Assembly (NCBI GenBank): GCA_001314705.1
Contig: LJSU01000014.1
Location: 1 to 64,000 of the forward strand
Length of the DNA: 64,000 nt
Direction: 5' to 3'
Source of the DNA: Rhodobacteraceae bacterium HLUCCO07
GTDB lineage: Bacteria; Pseudomonadota; Alphaproteobacteria; Rhodobacterales; Rhodobacteraceae
This document shows positions 37,359-54,288 of the stretch, piece by piece. A model generated the notes under the pieces. The model had not been told where the DNA came from. It worked only from the letters and a program-made list of their open reading frames with translations, and searched no databases. Numbering within the stretch: the first letter of the stretch is position 1; each line of letters starts with the position of its first letter. A program made the position numbers and the translations under genes.

Positions 37359-38781
37359 TTACCAACTGGCCGAGATATATTGCGTTTCCATGAATTCGAG
37401 CATCCCCTCGTGGCCGCCCTCGCGGCCGAGGCCGGATTGCTTGGTGCCGCCAAAGGGCGCGGCAGGATCGCTGACCAGCCCGCGGTTCAACCCCACCATC
37501 CCGTAATCGAGCCGTTCGCAGACCTGCATCCCGCGCTTGAAATCGCCCGAGAACACGTAGGCGACAAGACCGTATTCGGTGGCATTGGCGCGGGCGATCA
37601 CGTCCTGCTGATCGGTGAAGGTCTGGATCGCGGCGACCGGGCCGAAGATCTCGTCATGCACGCAATCGGCCGTCTCCGGCACGTTCGACAGGACCGTGGG
37701 CGGGTAGAAGTAGCCGACACCCTCGGGCAAGGTGCCGCCGCATTCCACCCTGGCCCCCTTGGCCACGGCGTCGGCCACGAAGGCGGCCACCTTGTCGCGC
37801 GTATCGGCGTTGACCAGCGGGCCGACATCGACCGATGGGTCGGTGCCGTCGCCGACCTTCAGCGCGCCCATGCGTTCGGCAAGGCGCTTGGCGAAGTCCT
37901 CGGCGATGTCTTTGTGCACGTAGATACGGTTGGCCGCCGTGCAGGCTTCGCCGAGGTTGCGCATCTTGGCCAGCATCGTGCCTTCGATCGCCTCGTCCAT
38001 ATCGGCATCCTCGAACACGAGGACGGGCGCGTTGCCGCCCAGTTCCATCGCCGGTTTGAGCACTTGATCGGCGGCCCCCTTCAGCAGCGTGCGGCCGACG
38101 CCCGTCGCCGGTGAAGCTCACCACGCGCACGCGGGGGTCATGCAGCATGTGATCGACGAGTGCGCCGGTGCGTTTCGATGGCAGCACGTTCACGAGCCCG
38201 GGCGGCACGCCCGCCTCTTCCAGAAGCGGCATCAGGGCCAGCATGGTGAGCGGCGTTTCCGAGGCGGGTTTGATGATGACGCCGCAACCTGCCGCCAATG
38301 CGGGCGCGATCTTGCGCGTGCCCATCGCTGCCGGATAATTCCACGGGGTGATCAGCACGGCCAGCCCGGCGGGCTTGTGCTGCACGATGATCCGCGCGCC
38401 GCTGGAGGGCGCATGGGTGATCATCCCGTCGGCGCGCACCGCTTCCTCCGCGAACCAGCGGAAGAATTCGGCGGCATATGTGGCCTCGCCCCGCGCATCC
38501 CCGCCGGCCTTGCCGTTCTCCAGCGTGATGAGATGGGCGAAATGATCGAGCCGCACGGTCATCAATTCCCACGCCTTTCGCAACACCTCGGACCGTTCAC
38601 GCGGCGTGCGCGCGGCCCAGTCGGCCATGGCGGCCTCGGCCGCGTCAAGCGCGGCATCGGCGTCGGCGATATCGGCAGAGGCGACCGAGGCCAGCACCTC
38701 TTCGGTGGCGGGGTTGATCACGTCGAACCGTTCGGCCGTCTCGTGCCACGCGCCGTTGATGTAAAGATCGGTATGGTCCAT
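37359..38781 (-). pseudogene. NAD-dependent aldehyde dehydrogenase, frameshifted
   Basis: A gene for a roughly 474-residue aldehyde dehydrogenase of the succinate-semialdehyde/betaine-aldehyde type. The N-terminal part (start 38781 behind GGAGG) reads through VITPWNYPAAMGTRK to DPRVRVVSFTG. The reading frame then shifts near 38100-38107. The downstream part resumes in another frame with GVGRTLLKGAADQVLKPA, MELGGNAPV, the catalytic Cys in LGEACTAANR and the normal C terminus. Compared with the usual FTGSTGVGR, two bases seem to be missing. All catalytic residues survive on either side, so this is a recent mutation or a sequencing error. Confidence 0.85.
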
Positions 38782-38797: not shown

Positions 38798-40066
38798 TCA
38801 GAGCAGGTGGCGGAGCGGCTGCTCCACGCGGCCTGCAAAATCGCTCAAAAGGGTGATGGCGGTTTGCGCGTCGAGTTGCGCGGGGCCGCATTCCAGCGTC
38901 ACGCTCAGCCCGGTCCCGCCGGTCATGAGAGTCAGGACGGGGCTGGCCTCGGCGCCCACCGCAAGGCTGCGGATCGCCGTGCCGCGAAGGTCGCGCAGGA
39001 TCAGGTCCGGCGCGTCCTCGGTCTCGCCGACCGCCGAAAGTGCCCGGCCCGCCGGAACCGCGAAATGTCGCGCCTGTCCGAACCGCTCGACCGCGACGAT
39101 ACAGGGGGGTGACAGACTGGCCCCGGCCAGACCGGCCAGAAGCGCATCGGCATCCGTCAACCCATGAGCCTCGGCGGCCCAGTCGGCAAAGGCGGCAAGG
39201 CCGTCGGTGCCGATCTCGGCGGTCAGCATGCGGGTCGTTGCCGTCGCGACCTCGGAAGCGGGCGTTGCAGCCGGCAGCGCCCGCAGCGTTTCGAGGTCAC
39301 GCACATGATAGGGCTGTGGATGACCGGCCTCGACCAGTTTCGCAAGGTCGAGCCCCTGTTCCAGCGCCAGCCGTCGCGCCTTGGGCGAGGCGAGGATGCG
39401 CCCGCCGCTGGCCCGCTGTGCGGGTTTGGCGGGTTCGGGTCTTGTGTCGGGTTCGGGTTCCGCCTCGGCCTCTGGCCTGGCTGTAGGGGCCGGTGGGGCG
39501 GACGCCACCGACCGGGCCACGGGGTTCGCGGGGGCCTCGGCGCTGATGATCGCCACCGGCTCGCCCACCGGCACCTCTTCGCCCGCCTCCGCCAATGTCG
39601 CGGCGAGGTAGCCGTCGCGCCCGGCCTCGACCTCCATCGTGCTCTTGTCCGTTTCGACCTCGAAGAGCATGTCACCGGCGGCCACGGCATCGCCCGGCGC
39701 CTTTTGCCAGCTGACCAGCACGCCGCTGTCCTGTGCCATGCCAAGCTGCGGCATGGTGACGGAGTGACCCTCGGGCAGGTCGTCGGCAGGGCGCGCATCG
39801 CCGGCGGGGGCGGGTTTCTCCTCCTCGGCGCTGTTGCTGATCCGCGCGATCACCGCACCGACCGGCACGTCATCGCCCGCATCCGCCACGACGCAGGTCA
39901 GGAACCCGCTGGCCTGTGCCTCGACCTCCATCGTGGCCTTGTCGGTCTCGACCTCGAACAGCAGGTCGCCCTTGACCACCGCGTCGCCCGGCGCCTTGAG
40001 CCAGGACACGATCTTGCCCGCATCCTGTGCCATGCCCAGCTGGGGCATCGTCACGTCATGCGGCAT
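38798..40066 (-). CDS. Two-lipoyl-domain scaffold with degenerate E2 domain
   Basis: A 422-residue protein with two lipoyl domains (residues 1-77 and 101-175; lipoyl lysines Lys43 and Lys141, each in ETDK). A Pro/Ala/Glu linker follows, then a peripheral-subunit-binding domain (ILASPKARRLALEQGLDLA, 224-242) and a shortened acyltransferase-like domain to the end. In the position of the active-site HxxxDG, the protein reads LECGPAQLDA, so the catalytic His is absent. It probably serves as a lipoyl carrier or structural core, with acyl transfer done by the separate E2 at 36473. Its start overlaps the E1-beta stop by 11 bases. Confidence 0.88.
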   Translation of the reverse strand: MPHDVTMPQLGMAQDAGKIVSWLKAPGDAVVKGDLLFEVETDKATMEVEAQASGFLTCVVADAGDDVPVGAVIARISNSAEEEKPAPAGDARPADDLPEGHSVTMPQLGMAQDSGVLVSWQKAPGDAVAAGDMLFEVETDKSTMEVEAGRDGYLAATLAEAGEEVPVGEPVAIISAEAPANPVARSVASAPPAPTARPEAEAEPEPDTRPEPAKPAQRASGGRILASPKARRLALEQGLDLAKLVEAGHPQPYHVRDLETLRALPAATPASEVATATTRMLTAEIGTDGLAAFADWAAEAHGLTDADALLAGLAGASLSPPCIVAVERFGQARHFAVPAGRALSAVGETEDAPDLILRDLRGTAIRSLAVGAEASPVLTLMTGGTGLSVTLECGPAQLDAQTAITLLSDFAGRVEQPLRHLL

Positions 40067-41051
40067 GAATCATCTCCCCCGCGCAGAGCTTGCGCGCGTT
40101 TTCAACCACGCCTTCCGGGGTCGGCACGGTGATGTCCTCGAGTGCCGGTGAAAACGGTACCGGCACATCCATCGCCCCCATGCGCAGCACCGGCGCATCG
40201 AGGTGATAGAACGCCTTTTCATTGAGGCGGCTGGCGATCTCGGCGGTCACGCCATAGCTCTGGTGGCCCTCGTCGATGACGATCGCGCGGCTGGTCTTCC
40301 TCACGCTTTCCAGGAGCGCCGCCTCGTCGAGCGGCACGATGGTGCGCGGGTCGATCACCTCGGCGCCGATGCCCTCACGGCCCAGCATCTCGGCGGCGGT
40401 CTCGGCGACCTGCACCATCGACGACGTGGCGATCAGCGTGATGTCCGAGCCCGCGCGCTTGATATGCGCCTCGCCGAAGGGGATGAGGTATTCCTCTTCC
40501 GGCACCGGGGCCTTGTCCTGGTACATCAGCTTGTCTTCGAAGATCACCACCGGGTTGTTGTCGCGGATGGCGGTTTTCATCAGGCCCTTGGCCTCGTAGG
40601 CCGATGAGGGCATCGCCACCTTGAGCCCCGGGATATGGGCGACCAGCGCCTGCAGGGATTGCGAATGCTGCGCCGCCGAGCGCCGGGTCGCCCCCATGTT
40701 TGTGCGCAACACCATCGGCACGGTCAGCTTGCCACCCGACATGTAATGCTGCTTGGCCGCCTGGTTGCATAGCTGATCCATCACGAGGTAGATGAAATCG
40801 CCGAACATCAGGTCCACGATGGGGCGCGCGCCGGTCATCGCAGCGCCCACGGCCATGCCGACGAACCCCGGTTCGGAAATGGGGGTGTCGAGCACCCGCT
40901 CGGTGCCGAATTCCTCGACCAGGCCCGACAGCACCTTGAACGGCGTGCCCGCCTCGGCCACGTCCTCGCCCATCAGGAAAACGGTCGGATCACGGCGCAT
41001 TTCCTCGGCAATCGCCTCGTTCACGGCCTGCGACAGGGTAATCTCGCGCAT
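40056..41051 (-). CDS. 2-oxo-acid/acetoin dehydrogenase E1 beta subunit
   Basis: A 331-residue transketolase-like E1 beta subunit (relatives AcoB, PdhB, BkdB). Typical segments are LSQAVNEAIAEEMRRDP, FLMGEDVAEAGTPFKV, DTPISEPGFVGMAVGAAMTG and VPMVLRTNMGATRRSAAQHSQ. MREITLSQ at 41051 follows a GAGGAGAGAAG ribosome box and is 11 bases after the E1 alpha stop. With E1 alpha it forms the thiamine-diphosphate site that decarboxylates or cleaves the substrate. Clustering with an acetaldehyde-type dehydrogenase suggests acetoin-like chemistry, but pyruvate- or branched-chain-like substrates cannot be excluded. Confidence 0.92.
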   Translation of the reverse strand: MREITLSQAVNEAIAEEMRRDPTVFLMGEDVAEAGTPFKVLSGLVEEFGTERVLDTPISEPGFVGMAVGAAMTGARPIVDLMFGDFIYLVMDQLCNQAAKQHYMSGGKLTVPMVLRTNMGATRRSAAQHSQSLQALVAHIPGLKVAMPSSAYEAKGLMKTAIRDNNPVVIFEDKLMYQDKAPVPEEEYLIPFGEAHIKRAGSDITLIATSSMVQVAETAAEMLGREGIGAEVIDPRTIVPLDEAALLESVRKTSRAIVIDEGHQSYGVTAEIASRLNEKAFYHLDAPVLRMGAMDVPVPFSPALEDITVPTPEGVVENARKLCAGEMIHAA

Positions 41052-41062
41052 CTTCTCTCTCC

Positions 41063-42040
41063 TCAGTCCGCGTAAACATGCATGTCCACTTCGGACACAT
41101 CGGGATAGGCAGCGGCCTCGGCATAGGCGACGGCCTCGCGCGCATCGGTCTCGATCTCGGCATTCATCGCCTCGATCTCCGCCTCGCTGGCGATGCCTTC
41201 GGCCACCAGCCACGACCGGAACCGCACGATCGGATCACGGTTTTCCTTCCAGTCCTTTTCCTCGTCCTTGGAGCGGTAGTATTCGCGGTTGATGTCGCCC
41301 ACATGGTGCCCGTGATAGCGATAGGTCATCAGCTCGATGAAAAACGGCCCCTCGCCCTTGCGCGCCCGCGTCACAAGCTTTTGCGTCAGCTCGTTGACCG
41401 CCAGCACGTCCTGCCCGTCGACCTGGTGCGCCTCGATTCCGAAGGCTTCGGCCCGCGCGGTGATCGAACCCGCGGCGATCTCCTCGGTCCTGGTGTATTC
41501 GGAATAGCCGTTGTTCTCGCAGGCATAGATGACCGGCAGATTCCATAGCGCGGCCATGTTCATGACCTCGTACCAAAGCCCCTGCGCCGTCGCCCCGTCG
41601 CCAAAGAAACATACAGTCACATCGTCGCTGCCCTGCAGTTTCGCCCTGAGCGCCGAGCCGGTGGCAATGCCCATCGACCCACCCACGATGGCATTGGCGC
41701 CAAGGTTGCCGTGGCTTTGATCGGCGATATGCATCGAGCCGCCCTTGCCGCGGCAATAGCCCTCTTCCTTGCCCAGAAGCTCGCAGAACATCTCGCGAAA
41801 CTCCGCCCCCTTGGCCACGCAATGGCCATGGCCGCGATGGGTCGAGGTGATGCGGTCATCGTCGGTCAGTGCCTCGCAGATGCCCACCGCGACGGCCTCC
41901 TCGCCGGAATACATGTGCGTGAGGCCCGGCATCTTGGCCGAGAGGTAAAGCTGGTTGGCGTTGTCCTCGAAGGTGCGGATGCGCACCATCTGGGCATACA
42001 TGCGAAGGTAGTCTTCGGTATTGGTCTTGGCCTTTGCCAT
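41063..42040 (-). CDS. 2-oxo-acid/acetoin dehydrogenase E1 alpha subunit
   Basis: A 325-residue E1 alpha subunit (relatives AcoA, PdhA). The thiamine-diphosphate motif begins with FFGDGATAQG and closes with ENNGYSEYTR. STHRGHGHCVAKGAEF and GKGGSMHIAD are also characteristic. It pairs with the E1 beta gene directly downstream. A copy of the dispersed repeat lies in the 105-base gap to the M24 gene upstream, which is unusual inside an operon and may allow partial termination or mRNA processing. Confidence 0.93.
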   Translation of the reverse strand: MAKAKTNTEDYLRMYAQMVRIRTFEDNANQLYLSAKMPGLTHMYSGEEAVAVGICEALTDDDRITSTHRGHGHCVAKGAEFREMFCELLGKEEGYCRGKGGSMHIADQSHGNLGANAIVGGSMGIATGSALRAKLQGSDDVTVCFFGDGATAQGLWYEVMNMAALWNLPVIYACENNGYSEYTRTEEIAAGSITARAEAFGIEAHQVDGQDVLAVNELTQKLVTRARKGEGPFFIELMTYRYHGHHVGDINREYYRSKDEEKDWKENRDPIVRFRSWLVAEGIASEAEIEAMNAEIETDAREAVAYAEAAAYPDVSEVDMHVYAD

Positions 42041-42070
42041 GGCGCGGTCCTTTCAGGGCAGGCGCCCCAG

Positions 42071-42102
42071 TTTCATCTTGCCTGAAATACTCCCGCCGGA
42101 GG
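42071..42102 (-). repeat. Dispersed intergenic repeat, copy D
   Basis: On the reverse strand: CCTCCGGCGG, then GAGTATTTCAGGCAAGATGA. It lies between the M24 and E1 alpha genes of one operon. Confidence 0.6.
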
Positions 42103-42145
42103 CGCCGCCGCCCCCTCGGGCGGCGGCACGCCCCGACAGGGGCGT

Positions 42146-43456
42146 TCAATAGCGGTTGGCGATCGGCAGGTCCTCGGCCGGGAAGAGGCTGATCACCTCG
42201 CAACCAGTATCGGTGACGACGACCTCTTCCTCGATCCGCGCGGCCGAATAGCCGTCGGCCGCCGGGCAATAGGTTTCCAGCGCAAAGACCATGCCGGTCT
42301 GGATTTCCATCGGGTGGTCGAGCGATACGGCGCGGCTGATGATGGGCCGCTCATGCAGCGCCAGCCCAAGCCCGTGCCCGAATTGCAGGCCGAAGGCCGC
42401 GTCCTCGGAGGGAAAGCCGAATTCCTCGGCCTTTGGCCAGACGGCGGCGACCTTGTCCGTGCTCACGCCCGGCTTGATCATCGCGATCGACGCGTTGATC
42501 CATTCGCGCGCCTTTACATAGGCGTCGTTCTGCGCGGGTGTCGCGCGGCCGATGTTGAAGGTCCGGTAATAGCAGGTGCGATAGCCCTGGTAGCTTTGCA
42601 GGATATCGAAGAACGCTTGATCCCCGGGGCGGAAGTAGCGATCGGTGAAATTGTGCGGATGCGGGTTGCACCGCTCGCCCGAGATCGCGTTGATCGCCTC
42701 AACGTCGTCGCTGCCCATCTCGTAGAGCATCTTGTTGGACAGCGCGACGATGTCGTTCTCGCGGATGCCGGGTTTCAGCTCCTCGTAGATCATGTGATAG
42801 ACGCCATCGACCATGCTGGCCGCCTGGGTCAGAAGCTGGATCTCGTCCCAGTTCTTGATCTCGCGCGCCGCCAGCATGATCTGCTGGCCGTCCACGACCT
42901 TGATCCCCTCTTCCTGCAAGGCGTGGAACATCGCGGTTTCGGCATAATCCACGCCCACCGGCATGTCGGCCATGCCGGCCTCCCTGATCAGCTGGGCGAT
43001 CTGCCTGGCGTATTTGCGCATCAGCCCGAATTCGGGCGGGATCGTGCCGCGCATCCCCACGACGCCGGCCAGGCAGTGATCGGGCTCCAGCCAGTCGGAG
43101 TATTTCTGGTGATGGACGGCGGCCGAGCCGAAATCCCAGACATAGGGCGAATCGTCCCCGGTCAGCAGGCAGAAGCGGCACATCTTGTCGCGTTCCCACT
43201 CGCCGATCTTGGTGGCGCTGACATAGCGGATGTTGTTGACGTCGAAGAGCAGAAGCGTGCCCGCGCCGGAGGCCTGAAGGGCCTGTCGGGTCCGCGCCAG
43301 CCGATAGCGGCGCAGCCGGTCGTGGTCGATGCGGCGCTCGAAATCGACCGAGGTGTGGCCCCAGGCCGGCAGGCGCCCTTCCCAGCGCCAGTTGGGTTCG
43401 AGATCCTGCGGCGTCAGCAGGTTCGGCATCAGGGCCGAGGCAGGACGGTCAGACAT
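42146..43456 (-). CDS. M24-fold (creatinase/aminopeptidase P-like) enzyme with altered metal site
   Basis: A 436-residue pita-bread-fold protein related to aminopeptidase P, creatinase and DMSP lyase DddP. Candidate ligands are Asp284 (AFFDILQ), His361 (FGHGLGLALHERP), Glu394 (ALETY) and Glu409 (RIEEEVVV). The second Asp of the canonical D-x10-D pair is Cys295 (YRTCYYRTF), so the standard two-metal peptidase site is incomplete. It lies between the SDR and E1 alpha genes, so a role in processing the operon's substrate, for example C-N, C-S or C-O cleavage, is more likely than peptide digestion. Substrate unknown. Confidence 0.8.
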   Translation of the reverse strand: MSDRPASALMPNLLTPQDLEPNWRWEGRLPAWGHTSVDFERRIDHDRLRRYRLARTRQALQASGAGTLLLFDVNNIRYVSATKIGEWERDKMCRFCLLTGDDSPYVWDFGSAAVHHQKYSDWLEPDHCLAGVVGMRGTIPPEFGLMRKYARQIAQLIREAGMADMPVGVDYAETAMFHALQEEGIKVVDGQQIMLAAREIKNWDEIQLLTQAASMVDGVYHMIYEELKPGIRENDIVALSNKMLYEMGSDDVEAINAISGERCNPHPHNFTDRYFRPGDQAFFDILQSYQGYRTCYYRTFNIGRATPAQNDAYVKAREWINASIAMIKPGVSTDKVAAVWPKAEEFGFPSEDAAFGLQFGHGLGLALHERPIISRAVSLDHPMEIQTGMVFALETYCPAADGYSAARIEEEVVVTDTGCEVISLFPAEDLPIANRY

Positions 43457-43513: not shown

Positions 43514-44323
43514 TTACTGGATGCACCAGCCGCCATCGACGTGGATCATCTGGCCGGTCATGTAGTCGCTGTCATTCGAGGCCAGGAAAGACGCGGTGCC
43601 GGTGATGTCGTCGGGATAGGACACGCGCTTGATCTGCAACGCGTCGCGCACGATGTCGTCATAGGCCTGGCCCTCGCGTTCCTTGAACCCGATATCGACG
43701 AGATCCTTGTCAAGCTGTTCCCAGAGCGGGGTGACGACCACACCCGGTGCATAACCGTTGACGGTGATGTTGTGCTCGGCAAGGCCGATGGCCCCGCAAT
43801 GCGTGAGCGCCAGGCAGCCGTATTTCGAGGTGCAATAGACGGTGACATCCACCAGCGGCTTGCGCGACGCGATGCTGCCCACGTTGATCAGCTTGTAGGG
43901 ATGACCTTCCATCGGGCCCTGGGCGATCATCTGGCGCGCAGTTTCCTGCATCCCCAGCCACATCGCCTTGGTGTTGACGTTCATGATCATGTCCCAGTTG
44001 TCTTCGTCGATATCCATGAAGAACCGGGGCTTGTTCAGGCCGGCATTGAAGAGGCCGACATTGATGGACCCGAAGGCCTCGACCGTGGCGGCGACGGCGC
44101 TCGCGTTGTCCTCGCGCTTGGTGACATCCATGCTTACCGCGATGGCCTTGCCGTTTCCGGCGGCGTTGATGCGCTCGGCGACACCCTGTGCCTCGTCCAG
44201 TGACAGATCGCCCAGACAGACATTCGCGCCCTGCGCGGCAAAGCTCTCGGCGTTGGCGGCGCCCATGCCGCGGGCCGCGCCGGTGATCAGGATGTTCTTG
44301 CCCTTGAGGCGGTTGGGGTCCAT
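43514..44323 (-). CDS. Short-chain dehydrogenase/reductase
   Basis: A 269-residue SDR-family NAD(P) oxidoreductase. The nucleotide motif TGAARGMG, the NAG segment (LFNAGLNKP), the catalytic Ser region VGSIASRK and YCTSKYG (catalytic Tyr and Lys) are all present, as is the C-terminal MTGQMIHVDGGW. The start MDPNRLKG at 44323 follows AGGGAGGAAACC and lies 10 bases after the regulator stop. It probably oxidises an alcohol group of the imported compound before E1/E2 cleavage. Confidence 0.92.
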   Translation of the reverse strand: MDPNRLKGKNILITGAARGMGAANAESFAAQGANVCLGDLSLDEAQGVAERINAAGNGKAIAVSMDVTKREDNASAVAATVEAFGSINVGLFNAGLNKPRFFMDIDEDNWDMIMNVNTKAMWLGMQETARQMIAQGPMEGHPYKLINVGSIASRKPLVDVTVYCTSKYGCLALTHCGAIGLAEHNITVNGYAPGVVVTPLWEQLDKDLVDIGFKEREGQAYDDIVRDALQIKRVSYPDDITGTASFLASNDSDYMTGQMIHVDGGWCIQ

Positions 44324-44333
44324 GGTTTCCTCC

Positions 44334-46160
44334 CTAAGTGACCGTGGTTCGCAGAATGGTTTCGGCCTGGCCCTGGATCCGGGCCAGCGCGTCGCGCGGG
44401 GTGACGATCCCGCGCAGCATGTCGTGCAGCTCATGGCCGCACAGGCTGATGATCTCCGAGATTTGCGGGATCGGCGGGCGTGGCCAGAATTGCAGCTCGT
44501 CCCGCCACGACATCTGGTCGACCAGTTCGAAGATCGGCGACAGGCGCCGTACTTCGGGGTCGGCCCCCACCGAATAGCGCGGTGCGGTGCGGCTTCCGTT
44601 CTGGGCATAGAGCTTCTGCGCGCCGGGCGACGTGAAGGCGACAAGCGCCTCGACCGCCTCGTCGATGCGTTCCTCGGGCAGGTTGGCGGGGATCGACAGG
44701 ACATATCCCCCCACCGGCGCGATGGGACGGCCCTCGGGCCCGTGCGGATGTGGCAGGTAGCCGGTGTTGCCATGCGCGGGGCAACTTTCGTCGAGCTCGA
44801 AATAGGGGGCCAGCAGGGTATAGCCATAGGCCATCGCGACCCGCCCGGCGCCATAGGGGCGCACGCGCTCGTACCACGACATCGACAGGATGTCGGGCGG
44901 CGAGAATTGCAGCAATTGCAAGAGGTACTCCGCCGCGGCGAGGGCGCGATCGGTGTTCAGCATCGGCCGGAGGCTGCGCCCGGCAAGCGTGTCGGCATCA
45001 TAGCCGCCGGCGATTTCGGGAAGGTCGATGATCGGCTGGCCGAAGGCGGCGCAGGTCATCATGAAGGTGTGGCCCAGCGCCGTGCCGCGCGCCGCGTTCC
45101 ACGCCACGCCATACCGGTCATGCGCCGGATCGTGGAAATGCCGCGCGGCGGCGATCACGTCATCGGTGGTCACCGGTGGCTCCAACCCCTCGTCGGCGAA
45201 CCAGTCCTTGCGATAGAACATCAGCTCCGGCGTTGTCTGGCTCGGCACGCCGTAGGGCTGCCCGCCCCAATGGGCCGCGCGCCACCCGGCCGTGTGAAAA
45301 TCGCTCGGATCGAGGCGTTCGACATCCATCACTTCCGACAGGGGCCGGATGAAGCCCTTCTCGGCGAATTCCCCGATCCAGGGCAGGTCGACGGCGATCA
45401 GATCATAGCGGCTCTTGCCGCGCTCGGCGTTGCGCGACGCCTCTTCGTGCAGGCGGTCGATCGAGAAGGCCCTTTGATGAATGTCGGTGCCGACCATCTG
45501 TTCGAACTGCCGCTTGAGCCCCTCCATGACCATGAAGGTCGGATCGCCATGCACGAGGATGCGCAGACCGCCGGGCAGCTTGAGCGGCTGGGGCAGCGCA
45601 CCGGGCGGCGCGATGGCGGCGCGGCCGGGTTGATACGAGCCGCCGAAGTAATAGTCGGTGCTTTCGGTGGTTTGGCCGGCCTCGTCGAATGAATTCCGCA
45701 CCAGGCGATCGACCCGGTCGGACAACTGGCTGAAACTCTGAAGCAATCCCGGGCTGGGATGCAGCGAATATGTCTTGCCGGTGCGGGTGCGCGGCCGCCG
45801 TTCGATCAAGCCGGCGCGCTCGATCTCGGCCAGTTTCCGGGTCGCGGTCGCATAGGGCACGCCCGAGGCCGACACCAGCGACGAGGGCGAGACGATCCGC
45901 CCTTCGGAGTGGCTGAGCATCAGGTGAAGGATCATGTTGAGATGCGGGTTCGGCGTGCTCGGCTCGATCGCGGTGTCGAGTTCCATCGACAGCCCCATCA
46001 GGAACCGCACCACGCGTTCGAGCTCGGGGCTGACTTTCACCACCGACGCGGGCACGGCCCCGGCCGGAGCCGAATATCCGGATTGAATATTTCTGACTGT
46101 GCCCTGTTGCATGGCGCCTGGTTTTCCGGATGCGTTCCCGCGTCCTCGCCTCCCGTTCAT
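44334..46160 (-). CDS. Regulator: winged HTH fused to a family-1 solute-binding domain
   Basis: A 608-residue protein without signal peptide. Residues about 46-145 form a MarR/IclR-like winged helix (helix-turn-helix around VSPSSLVSASGVPYATATRKL, then AEIERAGLIERRP and a wing). After a linker, residues about 198-600 look like a complete family-1 extracellular solute-binding protein: LRILVHGDPTFMVMEGLKRQF, YDLIAVDLPWIGEFAEKGFI, PYGVPSQTTPELMFYRKDWF, VGGYVLSIPANLP. A periplasmic-type ligand receptor has thus been turned into the sensor of a cytoplasmic transcription factor. I chose ATG 46160, which has GGAGG upstream, over 46175. It heads the catabolic operon and is divergent from the ABC transporter. 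Confidence 0.85.
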   Translation of the reverse strand: MNGRRGRGNASGKPGAMQQGTVRNIQSGYSAPAGAVPASVVKVSPELERVVRFLMGLSMELDTAIEPSTPNPHLNMILHLMLSHSEGRIVSPSSLVSASGVPYATATRKLAEIERAGLIERRPRTRTGKTYSLHPSPGLLQSFSQLSDRVDRLVRNSFDEAGQTTESTDYYFGGSYQPGRAAIAPPGALPQPLKLPGGLRILVHGDPTFMVMEGLKRQFEQMVGTDIHQRAFSIDRLHEEASRNAERGKSRYDLIAVDLPWIGEFAEKGFIRPLSEVMDVERLDPSDFHTAGWRAAHWGGQPYGVPSQTTPELMFYRKDWFADEGLEPPVTTDDVIAAARHFHDPAHDRYGVAWNAARGTALGHTFMMTCAAFGQPIIDLPEIAGGYDADTLAGRSLRPMLNTDRALAAAEYLLQLLQFSPPDILSMSWYERVRPYGAGRVAMAYGYTLLAPYFELDESCPAHGNTGYLPHPHGPEGRPIAPVGGYVLSIPANLPEERIDEAVEALVAFTSPGAQKLYAQNGSRTAPRYSVGADPEVRRLSPIFELVDQMSWRDELQFWPRPPIPQISEIISLCGHELHDMLRGIVTPRDALARIQGQAETILRTTVT

Positions 46161-46195
46161 GTCGTCATCCTCCATCCGTATTGAGTTTGATATCC

Positions 46196-46247
46196 ATTTC
46201 GTATGGCGAAATTATCCGAAAAGGATACAAGTAAGTCCAATATGGAC
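46196..46247. promoter_or_regulatory. Three palindromes in the divergent control region
   Basis: Between the regulator gene and the ABC operon lie ATTTCG-TATGG-CGAAAT (46196-46212), TATCC-GAAAA-GGATA (46213-46227) and GTCCA-ATA-TGGAC (46235-46247) in locally AT-richer DNA. They are candidate operators for the fusion regulator and possibly for the XRE-cupin protein. The first shares ATTTCGTA with the control region at 51778-51814. Confidence 0.55.
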
Positions 46248-46369
46248 AAGTTTGCCGATGTCTGGCGACCGGAAACGCGCGACGCTGCTTTCAGATTGCT
46301 CGGGGCGCGAACCCGCGGCCTGGAGGAAGCCGGCAATCAAGACCGAATGCTTTACGGGAGGACCCAGTA

Positions 46370-47320
46370 ATGAACATGACGACAAGAATGGCCCTGGTCT
46401 GCACCACCGCCCTGCTGGGCGGTGCGGCCGCCGCGGAAACGATGACCATCGGAATCACGCAAAACAACGTGGGCGTCGACAGCTATCAGACGACCTATGA
46501 AAAGGCGTTCATCGCCGCGGCGGAAGCCAATCCAGACGTCGAGGCCGTCGTGCTCGACGCCGGCGGTGATGTCGCCCGGCAGATCGCCCAGATGGAGGAC
46601 CTGATCCAGCGGGACGTGGATGCCATCATCATCTGGCCGACCAATGGCGAGGCCGTCATCCCGGCCGTGCGCAAGGCGCATCAGGCCAACATCCCCGTTG
46701 TCGTGACCAACTCGAACATCGCCGAGCAGGGGTTTGATTTCGTTGCGTCCTTCTCGGGGCCCGACAACATCACCCAGGGCTCGCGCGCGGCCGAGATCAT
46801 GTGCGACAGGTTCACCGACATGGGCGTCGAGGGCGAGGCCCGCGTGGTGCAGATTTCCGGCCAGCCGGGCTATACCACGGCCATCGAGCGCGCCAAGGGC
46901 TTCGAGGACCGCCTTCCAGAGGTCTGCCCCGATGTGACCCTGGTCGAAACCCAGCCCGGAGACTGGAGCCGCGAGAAGTCGCAGCAGGTCATGGAGGCGT
47001 TCCTCGTCAAGTACGACGACATCGACGGGGTTTACGCGGGCGATGACAACATGGGTGTCGGCGCGCTCAACGCGGCCAAGGACGCGGATCGCGACGGCAT
47101 CGTCTTCGTTGGTGCCACCAACTTCGCGGTGGGCTACGAGGCAATGGCGGATGGCGATTACTGGGGGTCGATCTACCAGTCGCCCGTCGATGACGCCGAG
47201 GCCGCGCTGCAGACCGCGATCGACATCCTCAATGGCGAGGATCTGCCTTTCCTGAACTATTTCGACACGCCGAAGATCACCCAGGAGAACATGGACGAGT
47301 TCGAAAAGCCGGTTTTCTGA
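46370..47320 (+). CDS. Sugar ABC transporter periplasmic binding protein (RbsB-like)
   Basis: A 316-residue periplasmic binding protein of the ribose/galactose type (Peripla_BP_4). The signal peptide is MNMTTRMALVCTTALLGGAAAA. The mature part has IGITQNNVGVDSYQTTYEKA, the DGGDVARQIAQMEDLIQRDVDAIII-type region (here GGDVARQIAQMEDL), and VYAGDDNMGVGAL. A GGGAGG box precedes the ATG. It begins the rightward operon binding protein, two permeases, ATPase and is divergent from the fusion regulator. The ligand may be a sugar, a polyol or a related compound. Confidence 0.92.
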   Translation: MNMTTRMALVCTTALLGGAAAAETMTIGITQNNVGVDSYQTTYEKAFIAAAEANPDVEAVVLDAGGDVARQIAQMEDLIQRDVDAIIIWPTNGEAVIPAVRKAHQANIPVVVTNSNIAEQGFDFVASFSGPDNITQGSRAAEIMCDRFTDMGVEGEARVVQISGQPGYTTAIERAKGFEDRLPEVCPDVTLVETQPGDWSREKSQQVMEAFLVKYDDIDGVYAGDDNMGVGALNAAKDADRDGIVFVGATNFAVGYEAMADGDYWGSIYQSPVDDAEAALQTAIDILNGEDLPFLNYFDTPKITQENMDEFEKPVF

Positions 47321-47334
47321 TTTATCTCCCGGGT

Positions 47335-47365
47335 CACGCGGCGCGGGTTCTGCCCGCGCCGCGTG
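47335..47365 (+). terminator. Strong hairpin between binding protein and permease genes
   Basis: CACGCGGCGCGGG (47335-47347) and CCCGCGCCGCGTG (47353-47365) form a perfect 13-bp stem with a TTCTG loop and no long T tract. Such structures after binding-protein genes usually stabilise the upstream mRNA and attenuate the downstream permeases. The 259-base gap holds no gene. Confidence 0.8.
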
Positions 47366-47578
47366 TTCTGATCCCCGACACGACACCTGGCCCGGCGCGA
47401 CACGCGGGCTGACATGCTGGCGCGACCGGACCGGTCGCACCGCGTGGCAGGGACATTCACATCCGCGTGAATGACCCGGAGCAAGGTCGGGGAGCGATTA
47501 AAACTGGCCAGACCGACCTGCGCGGCTCAAGTATGGTGTCGGTGCAGCGGCCCGGGCCGCCATCGGGGAGGGGAAACC

Positions 47579-48553
47579 ATGGCACAATTCAACAAGTCGG
47601 ACATTGGCGCGCTTCTTGCGAAACAGGGTATCCTGATCGCCTTCGCGGTCTTCATGATCGGTTTTACGTTGGCCAATCCGCGTTTTATCGAACTCGACAA
47701 CGTCTCCGGTGTCATCCGCTCTTCGGCCATCCTGGGCGTGATGGCGCTCGGCGTGACCTTCGTGGTGATCGGGGGCAACCTCGATCTCTCGGTCGGGTCG
47801 ATGATGTCGTTTTCCACGATCGTGGTGCTCGACCTGCACGACAAGCTTGGCCCGGGGCTGGCCATCGTGGCGATGTTCGCCCTGACCCTCGCACTGGGGG
47901 CCTTCATCGGGTTCCTGGTGGGGTATCTCAAGCTCAATTCTCTGATCGTCACGCTGGGGATGCTGTCGGCCATCCACGGCCTTACGCTGACGTGGTCGGG
48001 CGGCAAGAACATGGATATTGCCGACAAGTCGGGCACCTGGTTCGCGTTCTTCGGGCAGGCGCGTGTGATGGGCGTCCCGGTGCCGATCCTGATCTTTGCC
48101 CTGCTGGCCGTGCTGCTGAGCCTGCTGCTGGCGAAAACGCCGTTCGGGCGCAAGGTCTATGCCGTGGGCGGCAACGGCCAGGCGGCGACCTTCTCGGGCA
48201 TCCCGCGCGCGCGGGTGGTGTTCATGACCTATCTCCTGTCGGCATTCTGCGTCGCGACGGCGGGCCTTTTGCAGGCCAGCCGCAGCATGGGCAGTCAGAA
48301 CACGGTCGGCCAGGGGATGGAGCTCGAGGTTCTGGCCGCGGTCATTCTCGGCGGTGCGTCGCTCCTCGGCGGATCGGGGACGGTGGTCAAGACGGTGATC
48401 GGTGTGCTGATCCTCGGCTTCATCCAGAGTGGCCTTCTGCTGGTGGGTCTCGACTTCTATGTCCAGTACATCGTGACATGGATCATCATCATCCTCGCCG
48501 TCTGGCTGGATGTCGCAGCCAAGCGGGGCCGCCTGTGGTCCCCGATCGCCTGA
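47579..48553 (+). CDS. Sugar ABC transporter permease (RbsC-like), first
   Basis: A 324-residue polytopic permease of the CUT2 family. The conserved GVTFVVIGGNLDLSVGSM segment and the late EVLAAVILGGASLLGGSGT loop are signatures of RbsC/XylH-type permeases. The start MAQFNKSD at 47579 follows GGGGAGGGG. It probably forms a heterodimer with the next gene product, since both are full-length and distinct. Confidence 0.93.
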   Translation: MAQFNKSDIGALLAKQGILIAFAVFMIGFTLANPRFIELDNVSGVIRSSAILGVMALGVTFVVIGGNLDLSVGSMMSFSTIVVLDLHDKLGPGLAIVAMFALTLALGAFIGFLVGYLKLNSLIVTLGMLSAIHGLTLTWSGGKNMDIADKSGTWFAFFGQARVMGVPVPILIFALLAVLLSLLLAKTPFGRKVYAVGGNGQAATFSGIPRARVVFMTYLLSAFCVATAGLLQASRSMGSQNTVGQGMELEVLAAVILGGASLLGGSGTVVKTVIGVLILGFIQSGLLLVGLDFYVQYIVTWIIIILAVWLDVAAKRGRLWSPIA

Positions 48554-48566
48554 GGGAGCATCGGTC

Positions 48567-49568
48567 ATGGCAACACTGAACCGCAAGGACTATATCAAGC
48601 GCAGCGCGATCTGGGGCTTCATCGTGGTCGAACTGGCGTTCTTTGCCATCGTCGGCGACGTGATGTCGGTCTCTGACAGGACCTTCCTCAGTCTGGACAA
48701 CATGCTGTTGCTGCTCAAGCAATCCGCGCCGATCGGGATCATCGCGCTGGGCATGACGATCATCATGATCAACGGCAATATCGACCTGAGCGTGGGCGCG
48801 ACATTCGCATTGGCCGCCATCGTCCTGCTCGACAGCCTGACCTGGCCGTTCATGCAGGCGCTGGGCGACTGGGCCATTCCACTGGCCTGGGGATTCGCGT
48901 TGATGACCGGTGTCGTGCTGGGGGCGATCAACGGGTTGATCGTGTGGAAAACCGGCGTCGATGCGTTCATCGTCACCCTGGCCTCGATGCTGGGCTTTCG
49001 CGGGCTGGTCTTCATGTATAACGGGGAACAGCCGACGAGCCATCTGAACTGGACCCTCGTCGATTTCGCCGAGGCGCAATTCCTGGGGCTGCACACGGCG
49101 ACATGGTTCCTGCTCGGGGTGGCGCTGATCCTGTGGCTGGTGATGACCAAGACCGTGCATGGCCGCAATGCCTATGCCATCGGCAACAACCGCGAGGCCG
49201 CGATCAACGCGGGCATCCGCGTCGGTCCGCATTTCATGCTGAATTTCATGCTGATCGGCTTTCTCGCCGCGCTGTCGGCGGTGATCTTCTATTCCGAAAG
49301 CGGCTCGGTCAATCCCAATGACGGGATGCTTTACGAGCTCTGGGCCATCACCGCCGTCGTTCTGGGCGGAACCAAGCTTGCGGGCGGATACGGCTCGATC
49401 ATCTCGACCCTCGGCGGGGTCATCGCGATCCAGCTCTTGCGCAAGGGGCTGGGCCATATCGGCGCCGATACGCAGACCGTGAACCTGGTGATCGGCCTGA
49501 TCCTGATCGGGGTGCTGTTTCTCGACCGCCAGTTGAACCGCCAGGGCAAGGAGGAGTTGAAGATATGA
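48567..49568 (+). CDS. Sugar ABC transporter permease (RbsC-like), second
   Basis: A 333-residue CUT2-family permease, paralogous to the preceding one: IIALGMTIIMINGNIDLSVG, then ITAVVLGGTKLAGGYGS. The ATG at 48567 is preceded by TGAGGGAG, 13 bases after the first permease stop. Its stop overlaps the ATPase start by four bases. Confidence 0.92.
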   Translation: MATLNRKDYIKRSAIWGFIVVELAFFAIVGDVMSVSDRTFLSLDNMLLLLKQSAPIGIIALGMTIIMINGNIDLSVGATFALAAIVLLDSLTWPFMQALGDWAIPLAWGFALMTGVVLGAINGLIVWKTGVDAFIVTLASMLGFRGLVFMYNGEQPTSHLNWTLVDFAEAQFLGLHTATWFLLGVALILWLVMTKTVHGRNAYAIGNNREAAINAGIRVGPHFMLNFMLIGFLAALSAVIFYSESGSVNPNDGMLYELWAITAVVLGGTKLAGGYGSIISTLGGVIAIQLLRKGLGHIGADTQTVNLVIGLILIGVLFLDRQLNRQGKEELKI

Positions 49569-51076
49569 CCGAACAGACACCCGTTCTGCGCCTTGAGGGC
49601 ATCGTCAAGACGTTCCCGGGCGTGCGTGCCCTCGACGATGTCTCCTTCAGCGTCATGCCCGGCGAGGTCCATGCGCTGATGGGGGAAAACGGCGCCGGGA
49701 AATCCACCCTGATGAAGGTGCTGGGTGGCATTCATGCCCCCGATTCAGGGCAGATATTCATCGGCGAGGAACCCGTCGTGATGACCTCGCCCATGCAGGC
49801 AAAGGCCAGCGGCGTGGTGTTCATCCACCAGGAACTCAGCCTTGCGGACGAACTCAGCGTGGCCGAGAACATCTTTCTGGGTGAACTGCCGCTCAAGGGG
49901 TTTGGCCGCGTCGATTGGAAGAAGCTCCATGCCGATACCGATGCGATCCTCAAAACGCTCAATGTCGGTTTCGATTCAACCAAGCGCGTGGGCGATCTGT
50001 CCATCGCCAATCAGCAGATGGTCGAGATCGGCCGCGCCCTGACCGTGAACCCCCGCGCGGTGATCTTCGACGAGCCGACCGCGTCGCTGACCGATGCGGA
50101 AAAGGTGGTGCTTTTCGACGTGATCGCGGATCTTCAATCGCGGGGTGTGGGCATCGTCTATATCTCGCACCGGATGGAAGAGATCTTCAGGATCACCGAC
50201 AGGATCAGCGTTCTGCGCGATGGCCAGTATCGCGGCACGCTCACAACGGCCGAGACGGACGAGGAAGAGGTCACGCAGCTCATGATCGGCCGCAAGCTGG
50301 ACCTTTCGCGCAACGAAAGCCATCACGAAATGGGGGATGTCGCGCTCGAAGTGCGCGGGCTCAGCTGCGGCGCGCTTTACCAGGATGTGAACTTTTCCGT
50401 GCGACGTGGCGAGGTGCTGGGCTTCTATGGCCTCGTCGGTGCCGGTCGTACCGAGATTGCCGAGACGATCTTTGGCTTGCGCACCCCCTCGGCCGGGCAG
50501 ATCCTGCTCGACAGTCAGGAGGTGCACATCTCCTCGCCGATCGACGCGCTGCGTCATGGCATTTCGCTCGTGCCCGAGAACCGCAAGTCGCAGGGTCTGG
50601 TGCTGGGCATGAATTGCCGCGACAACATGACCCTTCCGCAGGTCGATGACCTGACCGCCGGCCCCTTTGTGAGCGACGGCGCCGAGATCGCGATCTTCGA
50701 TCAGTATCGTGACAAGCTCGACATCCGCACCCCTGGCTGGCGCCAGATCGTGGGCAATCTCTCGGGCGGCAACCAGCAGAAGATCGTCATCGGCAAATGG
50801 CTTTCGATGCGCCCCGAGGTGCTGATCGTGGACGAGCCGACACGCGGCATCGACGTGGGGTCCAAGTCGGAGATTCACAACCTGATCCGCGATCTGGCAG
50901 CACAGGGCTATGCGGTCATCGTCATCAGCTCTGAAATGCCCGAGGTGCTGCACGTTTCCGACCGGATCGTGGCGATGTACTCGGGCAGGGTGATGCGCGA
51001 ATTCACCTCCGAAGAAGTGACCGAGGACAACCTGATCCAGGCGATCTCGGGCATCGCGGCCGAGAAGGTGGCGTGA
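49565..51076 (+). CDS. Sugar ABC transporter ATPase (RbsA-like, two domains)
   Basis: A 503-residue double ATPase of the CUT2 type. Domain 1 has Walker A GENGAGKST, the signature LSIANQQMVEIGRAL and Walker B AVIFDEPTASL. Domain 2 has the degenerate P-loop GLVGAGRTE and an intact LSGGNQQKIVIGKWL with VLIVDEPTRGIDVG. This asymmetry is normal for RbsA. It completes the transporter operon; the convergent XRE-cupin gene ends 24 bases beyond its stop. Confidence 0.95.
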   Translation: MTEQTPVLRLEGIVKTFPGVRALDDVSFSVMPGEVHALMGENGAGKSTLMKVLGGIHAPDSGQIFIGEEPVVMTSPMQAKASGVVFIHQELSLADELSVAENIFLGELPLKGFGRVDWKKLHADTDAILKTLNVGFDSTKRVGDLSIANQQMVEIGRALTVNPRAVIFDEPTASLTDAEKVVLFDVIADLQSRGVGIVYISHRMEEIFRITDRISVLRDGQYRGTLTTAETDEEEVTQLMIGRKLDLSRNESHHEMGDVALEVRGLSCGALYQDVNFSVRRGEVLGFYGLVGAGRTEIAETIFGLRTPSAGQILLDSQEVHISSPIDALRHGISLVPENRKSQGLVLGMNCRDNMTLPQVDDLTAGPFVSDGAEIAIFDQYRDKLDIRTPGWRQIVGNLSGGNQQKIVIGKWLSMRPEVLIVDEPTRGIDVGSKSEIHNLIRDLAAQGYAVIVISSEMPEVLHVSDRIVAMYSGRVMREFTSEEVTEDNLIQAISGIAAEKVA

Positions 51077-51100: not shown

Positions 51101-51715
51101 TCATCCGGGCGGCGAAGGCTCGTTCTCGGCGTTCTTTTCCAGGCGCTGGGCTTCGGTGCAGATGCAAAACACCTCGGCATCCCGCTCTCCGGCGCTGACA
51201 TAGGCATGGCCCATCGTGCTGTCGAGGTAGATGCCTTCGCCGCGTTTGAGCGTGACGGGCGCATAGAATTCCGAATGCACCACGATCTCGCCATCCATCA
51301 CGATCAGGAATTCTTCGCCGTCATGCCGTTCGAGCGGGCCGAATTCCTTGAGCGATGACGCCTTGATGCGCGCATGAATCGGGACCATCCGCTTGTTGGT
51401 CAGTTCCGCGCAGAGGTACCTGTACACGTAATTGCTGGTGTCGATCACGATACCCTCGCCCTCGCGCGACGGCGCAAAGCGGCTGTTGGGCGATGCGCCC
51501 TGGCTTTCGTCATCCCCGATCAACTGCCCGATTGTCAGATCCAGCCCTTCGGCGAGTCGCAGCACCTTGTCGAGGGTTGGCGAGAGCGTCCCGTTTTCGA
51601 TCTTCGAGATGGTGGAAACCGCGACGCCGGACAGCGAGGCAAGGCCGCTCAGCGTGAGCTGTCGGGCTTTGCGCAAATGTCTTAGCCGTGCCCCCATATC
51701 CTGGGCTGTGGTCAT
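51101..51715 (-). CDS. XRE-family regulator with C-terminal cupin domain
   Basis: A 204-residue transcription factor: an N-terminal helix-turn-helix of the XRE/Cro type (GARLRHLRKARQLTLSGLAS, then VSTISKIENGTLSPTLDKVL) and a C-terminal cupin (RHDGEEFLIVMDGEIVVHSE, then KRGEGIYLDSTMGHAYVS). XRE-cupin regulators sense small ligands of nearby catabolic pathways, such as amino acids, polyamines or amides. GGAGGA precedes its ATG. It is divergent from the FAD oxidoreductase/TRAP operon, its likely target. Confidence 0.92.
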   Translation of the reverse strand: MTTAQDMGARLRHLRKARQLTLSGLASLSGVAVSTISKIENGTLSPTLDKVLRLAEGLDLTIGQLIGDDESQGASPNSRFAPSREGEGIVIDTSNYVYRYLCAELTNKRMVPIHARIKASSLKEFGPLERHDGEEFLIVMDGEIVVHSEFYAPVTLKRGEGIYLDSTMGHAYVSAGERDAEVFCICTEAQRLEKNAENEPSPPG

Positions 51716-51777
51716 GGGCGTTCGATCCTCCTTTTGGTGCAGGAAGAGCTTATCAGCCCCCCATGAAAATGGAAATA

Positions 51778-51814
51778 TTTTCGTATACGATAAAAAATTA
51801 TTGCGTTACGAAAT
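51778..51814. promoter_or_regulatory. Palindromic operator region for the TRAP/FAD operon
   Basis: The perfect palindrome TCGTATACGA (51781-51790), flanked by TTT and TAAAA, lies in the divergent spacer. A second partial site TTGCGTTACGAAAT (51801-51814) follows. Both contain a TTTCGTA half-site like the one at 46196-46203. They are likely XRE-cupin targets. Confidence 0.6.
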
Positions 51815-51865
51815 TTCTTAGGTAGCGTTGCCGTCACGGACACGATGCGGAAGGAAATGAACCTG

Positions 51866-53008
51866 ATGTCAGAGCGCGCCATTTCAGCAGATGTCATCGT
51901 CATCGGCGCGGGCATGGCCGGCGCTTCGGTCGCTGCGGGACTGGCGCGGACGATGAAGGTCGTTCTGGCCGAGATGGAGGCGCAGCCCGGCTACCACACC
52001 ACCGGACGATCGGCGGCCGTGTTCGCCCCGAGCTACGGGCCCGACGGTGTGCGCGCCCTGACGCGGGCCTCTCGCGCCTTCTTCGACGCGGTGCCGGAGG
52101 GGTTCGCGGATGTGCCGCTGTTGACCCCGCGCCAGATCCTCATGATCGCGAGGGAGGACCAGACGGAATCGCTTGACGCGCTCATCGACAGGATGTCCGG
52201 GGAGGCCCGGGTGGTGCGGCTGGGCAAGGCGGCGCTCAGGGAACATCAGCCGCTGCTGAGAGCAGGCTACGCCGCGGCCGGGATGCTCGACACGGGAGGC
52301 CAGGATATCGACGTCGCTGCACTTCACCAGGGTTTTTTGCGCCTGCTCAAGGCGCGTGGCGGCAAGTTGCTGACCAATGCCGCGGTGCAGGAATTGACCC
52401 GTGACGCCGACGGCTGGCAGGTGCAGACGCAAGCCGACACGCTCTCGGCGCCGCTGGTGGTCAATGCCGGCGGGGCGTGGGCCGGTGCGATCGGTCGCCT
52501 TGCCGGGGCGGAAGAAATCGGCCTGGTGCTGAAGCGCCGAACCGCGATGATGGTGGCCGAGCCGGACGGGTTCACCCGCCGCGATGCGCCCATCACCATC
52601 GACGTCCAGGAAGAATTCTACCTCAAGCCCGATTCCGGGCGCTTGCTGATCTCACCGGCGGACGAGACGCCGACCGACCCGTGCGACGCACAGCCCGAAG
52701 AGATCGACGTGGCGGTCTGTGCCGACCGGATCATGACAGCCTTCGACCTCGATATCCGGCGGATCGAGAGCAAATGGGCGGGGCTGCGCAGCTTCGTCGC
52801 CGACAAGGAGCCGGTGATCGGCTTTTCCCGGGTCGTTCCCGGTTTCTTCTGGATGGCCGGGCAGGGGGGCTATGGCATCCAGTCGGCCCCGGCGGCGGCG
52901 GATCTTGCGACCGCATTGGTGCAAGGCAAGCCCGTTCCGGGGCATATTGCCGATCAGGGCCTTGATCCTGCGTGCGTTGCGCCCGACCGCATGGCGTGTG
53001 CGGCATGA
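51866..53008 (+). CDS. FAD-dependent oxidoreductase (DAO family)
   Basis: A 380-residue flavoprotein of the D-amino-acid-oxidase/glycine-oxidase fold. The FAD motif is VIVIGAGMAGASVAAGL near the N terminus, with TTGRSAAVFAPSYG, VVNAGGAWAGAIGRLAG and a C-terminal VIGFSRVVPGFFWMAGQGG. In-frame ATGs exist at 51845 and 51857, but 51866 has GGAAGGAA nine bases upstream. Members oxidise amino or N-methyl amino acids or hydroxy acids. Its stop overlaps dctM by ATGA, and the context with amidohydrolases suggests a D-amino acid or imino acid substrate. Confidence 0.88.
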   Translation: MSERAISADVIVIGAGMAGASVAAGLARTMKVVLAEMEAQPGYHTTGRSAAVFAPSYGPDGVRALTRASRAFFDAVPEGFADVPLLTPRQILMIAREDQTESLDALIDRMSGEARVVRLGKAALREHQPLLRAGYAAAGMLDTGGQDIDVAALHQGFLRLLKARGGKLLTNAAVQELTRDADGWQVQTQADTLSAPLVVNAGGAWAGAIGRLAGAEEIGLVLKRRTAMMVAEPDGFTRRDAPITIDVQEEFYLKPDSGRLLISPADETPTDPCDAQPEEIDVAVCADRIMTAFDLDIRRIESKWAGLRSFVADKEPVIGFSRVVPGFFWMAGQGGYGIQSAPAAADLATALVQGKPVPGHIADQGLDPACVAPDRMACAA

Positions 53009-54288
53009 TCTGGGTGATTCCCGTCATTGCGGTTGCGCTGCTGGCCTCTGGGCTGGCGCTTGCGTATGTGATCGGCGGTGCGGCCGTTCTGACCTTCGTG
53101 CTGACCGACAACACGCGCTATCTGGCCGTGCTGCCGCAAAAGGTGTTTTCGCAGATCAGCATCTTCTCGCTGCTGGCGATGCCGCTTTTCATACTGGCCG
53201 GCGAGCTCATGAACAGGGGGGGCGTGACCAAATCGCTCATCGACCTGTCAATGGCGCTCATCGGGCGCCTGCGCGGTGGGCTGGGGCACGTGAACATCAT
53301 GACCTCGGTGTTCTTTGCCGGCATATCGGGATCCGCGGTCGCCGACGCGGCCGCCCTGTCGAACACGATGGTTCCCGCGATGCGCGAGCGCGGTTACACG
53401 GCCTAGTATGCCGGGGCCATCACGGCGGCGTCCTCGATCATCGGCCCGATCGTGCCGCCCTCGATCATCCTGATCTTCTATGGCGCGCTGATGCAGACAT
53501 CGGTCGCGGCGCTTTTCGTGGCCGGTATCCTGCCGGGTCTGTTGTTGGCGCTCGCGCTTTTCATGGTCAACGGCTGGTTCGCGTGGCGCGAGGATCATCC
53601 GCGGATCGAAAAGGGCGAGGCACCGCCGCTTTTGCCGGCGATTCTTGTCGCGCTGCCCGCGCTCGCCCTGCCGATCATCATCGTCGGAGGGATCGTCCTG
53701 GGCTGGATGACGCCGACCGAAGCCGCTGCCGTCGCGGTCATTGCCGCGGGGGGCGCCGCGTTCTTCTATTCTCCGCTCACGCGTGACGACATCTGGGAAA
53801 GCTTCTCCCGGACGGCGGTTCTGACCGGGTCGATCTTCATGATCCTGTGCGCGGTCGCGGCGTTCGGCCATCTTGCCGCGCTTGAGCGGATTCCGCAGGC
53901 GATTGCCGGGTTGGTCGATGGCCTGGGCCTCGGTCCGGTCGGGTTCCTGATCGCCATGAACCTGCTTTTCATCATCGCGGGTATGATCATGGATGTGCCC
54001 GTTGCCCTTGCGCTTCTCGTGCCGCTGCTGGCGCCGGTTGCCCTGGCCAACGGGGCGGACCCGATTCATCTGGGCATCGTGATCTGCTTCAACCTGTGTA
54101 TCGGACTGGTGTCCCCGCCGCTGGGGGGGTGCCTGCTGATCGTGTCGACGGTCACGGGGGTCAACTACTGGAAACTGGCCAGGGCGATCGCCCCTTTCAT
54201 CTTCGCGGAAATCATCGTGTTGGGGATACTGGTCTTTGTCCCCGAGATCAGCCTCTGGCTGCCCCGGACGCTGGAGCTTTGGAAATGA
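53005..54288 (+). pseudogene. dctM: TRAP transporter large permease, interrupted by an amber codon
   Basis: The 428-codon reading frame encodes a complete TRAP large membrane subunit except for a TAG at 53404-53406. Before it: MIWVIPVIAVALLASGLALA, FSLLAMPLFILAGELMNRGG and TMVPAMRERGYTA. After it, in the same frame: YAGAITAASSIIGPIVPPS, and the normal C-terminal half to TLELWK. One base change would restore a sense codon. The 5' end overlaps the FAD gene and dctP follows. It is a recent nonsense mutation, a sequencing error or an unusual read-through case. Confidence 0.88.

Follow-up and report, generated by a model that had tools for sequence, protein, structure and literature searches.

By combining domain, fold and alignment searches with motif counts in related loci, we identified in the window (the whole 64,000-nucleotide stretch of Rhodobacteraceae bacterium HLUCCO07 DNA analysed here) a minus-strand gene (44337..46160) that encodes a single polypeptide in which a disordered linker connects a predicted winged helix-turn-helix to a complete family-1 solute-binding domain. 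This protein is probably a cytosolic one-component regulator, which would bind paired palindromes located between its own gene and the divergent gene of a transporter. Its role as a regulator is well supported by the palindrome pair beside the gene, the divergent synteny and the fold. It is also plausible that the protein operates as a cytosolic receptor for the substrate of the transporter or for a product thereof.

The probable regulator and its two parts

The open frame is unbroken from 44334 to 46175 (minus strand) and codes for 613 amino acids when counted from the upstream ATG at 46175. The ATG at 46160, which yields 608 amino acids, is the better start, since it is preceded 8 nucleotides ahead by GGAGG (46169-46173) and 608 amino acids is the length of many relatives. 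When the window was compared with eight relatives, all three codon positions varied about equally in the first 45 codons, and the changes in the head and the binding domain occurred mostly at third codon positions; therefore, the N-terminal tail is unconstrained, and selection acts on both domains at the protein level. A frameshift or a chance joining of two genes is ruled out, because the fusion is intact in all 80 of the best-matching named loci (63-91% identity), where it faces an RbsB-type transporter gene as in the window. These 80 loci are the closest relatives, being the best 80 of 572 confirmed stretches.

The sequence-only reading had described an in-frame fusion of a helix-turn-helix to a family-1 solute-binding protein, devoid of signal peptide and facing a transporter that uses a different, RbsB-type binding protein. 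These three points were borne out. The solute-binding domain (44337..45566, minus strand; residues 204-613) matched SBP_bac_1 (PF01547) with 79.8 bits versus a curated cut-off of 26, and the same model was matched by 12 of 12 aligned family members at E up to 0.01. The N terminus of the regulator has no hydrophobic segment, and no signal peptide or lipoprotein leader was seen in its hydropathy, which is below that of the RbsB genes with overlapping ranges. The facing gene (46370..47320, plus strand) encodes an RbsB-type binding protein matching Peripla_BP_4. No solved protein with both parts occurred among the 50 matches listed in each of two structure-match listings, an absence that carries no evidential weight; Arad_9887 of Agrobacterium radiobacter (PDB 5iai), a solute-binding protein that is an exported transporter component, has no DNA-binding head, unlike the regulator.

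The head (45687..46028, minus strand; residues 50-163 in the 613-residue numbering) is predicted to be a MarR/IclR-like winged helix-turn-helix. Its Foldseek matches were modest, with HpaR, HcaR and MepR among the best (we take HpaR and MepR to be members of the MarR family), and the predicted head has the MarR-type winged helix-turn-helix fold in common with these three regulators. The profile searches were divided between the two parts of the protein: SBP_bac_1 was above its cut-off, but MarR_2 (20.3 bits versus 27) and MarR (16.8 bits versus 24.6) were below theirs, and HTH_IclR, listed for 23 of 49 relatives' proteins (mostly from Paraburkholderia and relatives), was absent from the list of the window protein. 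A profile of the head gave no match to PDB sequences at E up to 0.01. The possibility of a plain MarR protein was rejected, as the MarR cut-offs were missed and a 410-residue solute-binding domain follows the head. MarR regulators are stand-alone proteins of ~140 residues with the effector pocket inside the same domain; in the regulator, unlike in MarR proteins, a separate receptor of ~400 residues is attached to the head. A plain IclR protein was likewise rejected, since no IclR effector-binding domain was listed at E up to 1 and the C-terminal part corresponds to SBP_bac_1.

LysR and LacI proteins are regulators with periplasmic-binding-protein-like effector domains, and Btr of Bacillus subtilis joins a cytosolic binding-protein domain, which binds siderophores, to an AraC DNA-binding head. 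The heads and effector domains of LysR and LacI differ from those of the regulator, as do the head and the binding-protein family of Btr; neither HTH_1 nor LysR_substrate was listed for the regulator at E up to 1, and no LacI head was listed in the domain search. SgrR and DsvR are similar in size to the regulator and have SgrR_N as a head. Neither SgrR_N nor SBP_bac_5 was listed for the regulator at E up to 1 (HMMER filters drop most matches above ~0.1), so the regulator is like SgrR in its layout and is not a member by sequence. In SgrR of Escherichia coli and DsvR of Vibrio cholerae, a helix-turn-helix occupies the N terminus and an SBP_bac_5 domain the C terminus, and SgrR represses itself (PMC13060122); the LysR effector domain goes with PBP II (PMC5882156). 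SgrR and DsvR share with the regulator the layout of an N-terminal helix-turn-helix and a C-terminal ABC-type solute-binding domain in one protein, the latter domain being full in the regulator, with no export leader seen. Their binding domain is SBP_bac_5, whereas that of the regulator is SBP_bac_1, and SgrR acts through a small RNA, whereas the regulator gene faces its likely target, the transporter operon. The sequence-only reading had regarded the architecture as not standard, which holds in part: no described family with this domain pair was found in the open-licence papers searched, but the layout has a precedent in SgrR and DsvR (PMC13060122). Regulators built on a solute-binding protein are thus already known, though from different domain families.

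The likely operator and the leader RNA

What is new here is the likely operator RTCCRNNNYGGAY and its geometry. Two palindromes, TATCCGAAAAGGATA and GTCCAATATGGAC, were first seen in the window alone, and they share the core TCC-N5-GGA. This core is present in 91 of 104 intergenic regions, with 180 sites versus ~10 in base shuffles, and spacings of 2-4 and 6-8 instead of N5 gave 13-25 sites. The 104 regions (101 of them distinct) come from 118 stretches with the gene, 14 of which were dropped (13 reversed and one without RbsB match). The consensus reads TATCCAwwwTGGATA, and the commonest copy-to-copy spacing is exactly 21 bp. In the 250 bp next to the rbsB start, RTCCRNNNYGGAY occurs exactly in 64 of the 80 best-matching loci (the exact form being missing from the other 16) and with one mismatch in 14 more. 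These numbers involve some circularity, since the loci in which the pattern was counted had also served to refine it. For comparison, among 1787 other 250-bp stretches from these loci, 1.5% contain it exactly and 13.8% with one mismatch. The base shuffles, the other spacings and the control stretches rule out chance palindromes.

The window contains a likely operator copy that matches RTCCRNNNYGGAY exactly (copy 1, GTCCAATATGGAC, 46235..46247), a second one with one mismatch at 21 bp from it (copy 2, ATCCGAAAAGGAT, 46214..46226) and, 22 bp from copy 2, a possible degenerate third copy with one mismatch (46192..46204). When searched in 244 whole genomes of the order, which partly overlap the species of the motif-defining loci, the tandem pair was found at 15 places in 13 genomes (reversed control, 1 place). 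Eleven of these 15 places lie 70-185 bp from a regulator match, the others being G237:C6, one place in G001 and two in G027. A relaxed second pair occurs elsewhere in the window's own genome (C17:83420). Among the more distant members, the core site was found beside those at 41-49% identity in L006, L142 and L147, and an imperfect site beside those at 42-45% identity in L149 and beside the second regulator copies of L141 and L150. No site was found near the gene in L007, L008, L010, L011, L143-L146, L151, L152 and L154-L156, nor near the first regulator copies of L141 and L150. These comparisons make it likely that the palindrome pair is the operator of the regulator.

In some loci of L043-L122, a further operator copy is located ~137-150 bp past another, close to where the regulator gene begins; DNA looping, or translation that starts farther downstream, could account for it.

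The transporter gene is preceded by a conserved leader RNA (46283..46369, plus strand), consisting of an outer stem GATTGC/GCAATC (46294-46299 with 46333-46338) together with two inner helices, the second of which carries GGAGG in its loop. Among the 38 leaders chosen for alignment, two-sided, pair-preserving changes occur at 10 of 14 pairs, a level that was reached by 1 of 500 shuffles. The alignment left out L062, L067, L071, L072, L076, L077, L081 and L083, and used only L086, L087 and L090 of the leaders after L084. Rfam gave no match to the leader at E up to 1. The leader model has one match in the window's own genome. Of 57 sources (56 loci plus the window), 15 have a match, in each case ahead of this transporter gene, and 42 have none; 7 of the 15 were part of the model. 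The leader is a possible riboswitch or other cis-acting RNA.

Promoter geometry and proposed mode of action

A sigma-70-type promoter of the regulator (TGGACT-17-GATAAT; 46211..46239, minus strand) is predicted from its consensus match only, and it overlaps both operator copies, which suggests self-repression. On the transporter side, a site with at most one mismatch lies within 140 bp of the leader stem in 37 of 38 tested leaders, one leader having none. In each of these 37, the stem is separated from a copy by 53-56 or 74-77 bp, with a varying intervening sequence. If transcription begins just ahead of the stem, the copies would be situated near -50 and -70 on one helix face, which suggests an activator. 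Of the 81 leaders (one from the window and 80 from the loci), the 38 tested for this spacing were picked because their leader RNA is alike, and kinship may explain part of its constancy. From sequence geometry, these data suggest that the regulator represses itself and activates the transporter. We propose that each 13-15-bp palindrome would be read by a dimer of heads, with two dimers sitting side by side on one DNA face. The binding domain would close on the imported compound, or on a product of it, thereby altering the grip of the heads on the DNA. At its own promoter, overlapped by the sites, the regulator would act as a repressor, and the transporter operon would be activated from ~50 and ~70 bp upstream of a start situated just before the leader RNA.

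The main rival to activation combined with self-repression is the repression of both genes, in which the regulator would block the transporter and its own promoter until the imported compound releases it, following a MarR/LacI logic. MarR-like heads usually repress, and a promoter-like consensus match on the plus strand (46187-46215) would put both sites just downstream of it; however, this promoter would generate a leader of ~150 nucleotides, and the fixed 53-56 or 74-77 bp spacing to the leader RNA is more activator-like, so that we hold repression of both genes to be somewhat unlikely. It is less probable still, and in our view rather improbable, that the palindromes belong to another transcription factor, the regulator binding elsewhere or serving as a co-sensor. 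Such an arrangement would fit the several distant members that have the protein and no site, but it sits poorly with the location of 11 of the 15 tandem pairs next to a regulator gene, with the presence of the site beside members down to ~41% identity (L142), and with five plasmid records in which no other regulator gene is directly adjacent.

The relatives are named in databases as "extracellular solute-binding protein" (many of them) or "multiple sugar transport system substrate-binding protein". Together with the strong SBP_bac_1 match, these names would suit an ordinary ABC transporter binding protein with an incidental N-terminal extension. We find this very hard to reconcile with the lack of a hydrophobic leader, the predicted winged helix-turn-helix, the likely operators beside the gene and the fact that the transporter already has its own RbsB-type binding protein. 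A likely cytosolic regulator with a putative operator of its own is the reading we retain.

Distribution, meaning and gene neighbourhood

In the order, the protein has a match in 40 of 244 genomes and 31 of 100 genera at E up to 1e-60 (some genomes having two or three). By alignment search at E up to 1e-50, matches were found in 9 of 385 genomes of the class (one, G671, only without the head) and in 7 of 398 genomes of the phylum (one, G347, only without the head). These genome counts are lower bounds, as only three to five candidates were scored per genome. Further matches, in plasmid records, come from Rhizobium, Shinella, Agrobacterium, Skermanella, Aminobacter and Paraburkholderia. Of 80 such records, 34 cover 80% or more of the query, and in those listed (60 of the 80) that cover at most 66%, the match starts after residue 185, without the head. 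A database search returned 1556 matches, the best 120 of which were listed, a number we do not take as the family size since plain solute-binding proteins fit its length limits. L129, L138 and L140 were rejected as regulators and counted as plain binding proteins, their match being headless and starting near model position 157-166.

In a 32-row tree, the 22 regulators fall on one side of one branch, with a support of 62/62 and long branches, by which a single origin of the fusion is neither shown nor excluded. The transporters' own binding proteins of L007 and L142 branch apart from the regulators, also on long branches; the regulator was probably not copied from a neighbouring family-1 transporter protein.

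Together, these proteins constitute a real, conserved and often misnamed family of likely regulators in alphaproteobacteria and Paraburkholderia. A group of proteins often named as transporter parts is probably a family of transcription factors, and the corrected name would change the reading of operons in roseobacters, rhizobia, Paraburkholderia and some alphaproteobacteria with small genomes. The operator offers a ready binding test and a way to map regulons. As the receptor part has solved relatives, screening could reveal the ligand, and the family could be used for biosensors of sugars or polyols. With SgrR and Btr, the regulator would add to the cases in which a transporter receptor has become a sensor in the cytosol. 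A more daring scenario, which we regard as doubtful in its entirety, is that a whole family-1 solute-binding protein moved from the periplasm to the cytosol as the sensor of an unrecognised regulator family found across alphaproteobacteria and Paraburkholderia, that the clamshell closing on the imported compound would switch tandem MarR-like dimers on 21-bp-phased sites, and that the transporter transcript thereby switched on would start with a new three-helix leader RNA, through which this compound would exert further control.

In the window, the RbsB-type gene is followed by further components of its transporter (47573..51076, plus strand), namely two RbsC-type permeases and an RbsA-type ATPase. 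On the minus strand, an SDR dehydrogenase gene (43514..44323) lies directly downstream of the regulator, and beyond it are a M24-family protein and the TPP-dependent dehydrogenase E1 alpha and beta (40059..43456). This organization is conserved. All 80 best-matching named loci have the divergent RbsB-type gene at most 600 bp away, the RbsA-type ATPase beyond it and the SDR gene directly downstream of the regulator; where enough sequence was available, 70 of 71 loci have the M24 gene next, and 64 of 68 have E1 alpha and beta. Three AT-rich 1.4-Mb genomes (GC 0.35-0.37) have members at 31% identity, with SDR, M24 and one or both E1 genes near. In L151, a Peripla_BP_4 gene in the opposite direction starts ~120 bp from the regulator, and L152 and L154 have, at the same place, an open frame of the same length (frame only). 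Other branches adjoin inositol-dehydrogenase-like genes, ring-cleavage genes or a MalEFG-type transporter. From these conserved neighbours, the regulator seems to be tied to the uptake and oxidation of sugar-like or polyol-like compounds. The M24 gene was rejected as DddP (118 bits versus a cut-off of 600).

Several minor observations concern the surroundings of the gene. L008, L010, L011, L145 and L146 form one branch, the members of which adjoin YciI; some of these loci also have Gfo/Idh/MocA, intradiol dioxygenase and maleylacetate reductase genes nearby, a hint that the pathway may pass through a hydroxyquinol-type ring. In many relatives, an SDR gene separates the RbsB-type gene from the first permease; at this place (47320-47573, plus strand) the window has none, nor do a few near relatives. 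A succinate-semialdehyde-dehydrogenase-like gene (37362-38781, minus strand) matches a relative in two pieces that lie in different frames and meet near 38107, this split being either a frameshift in the strain or an assembly error. Past the ABC transporter, an XRE-cupin regulator (minus strand), an FAD oxidoreductase and a TRAP transporter permease (51104-54288) probably form a separate catabolic unit.
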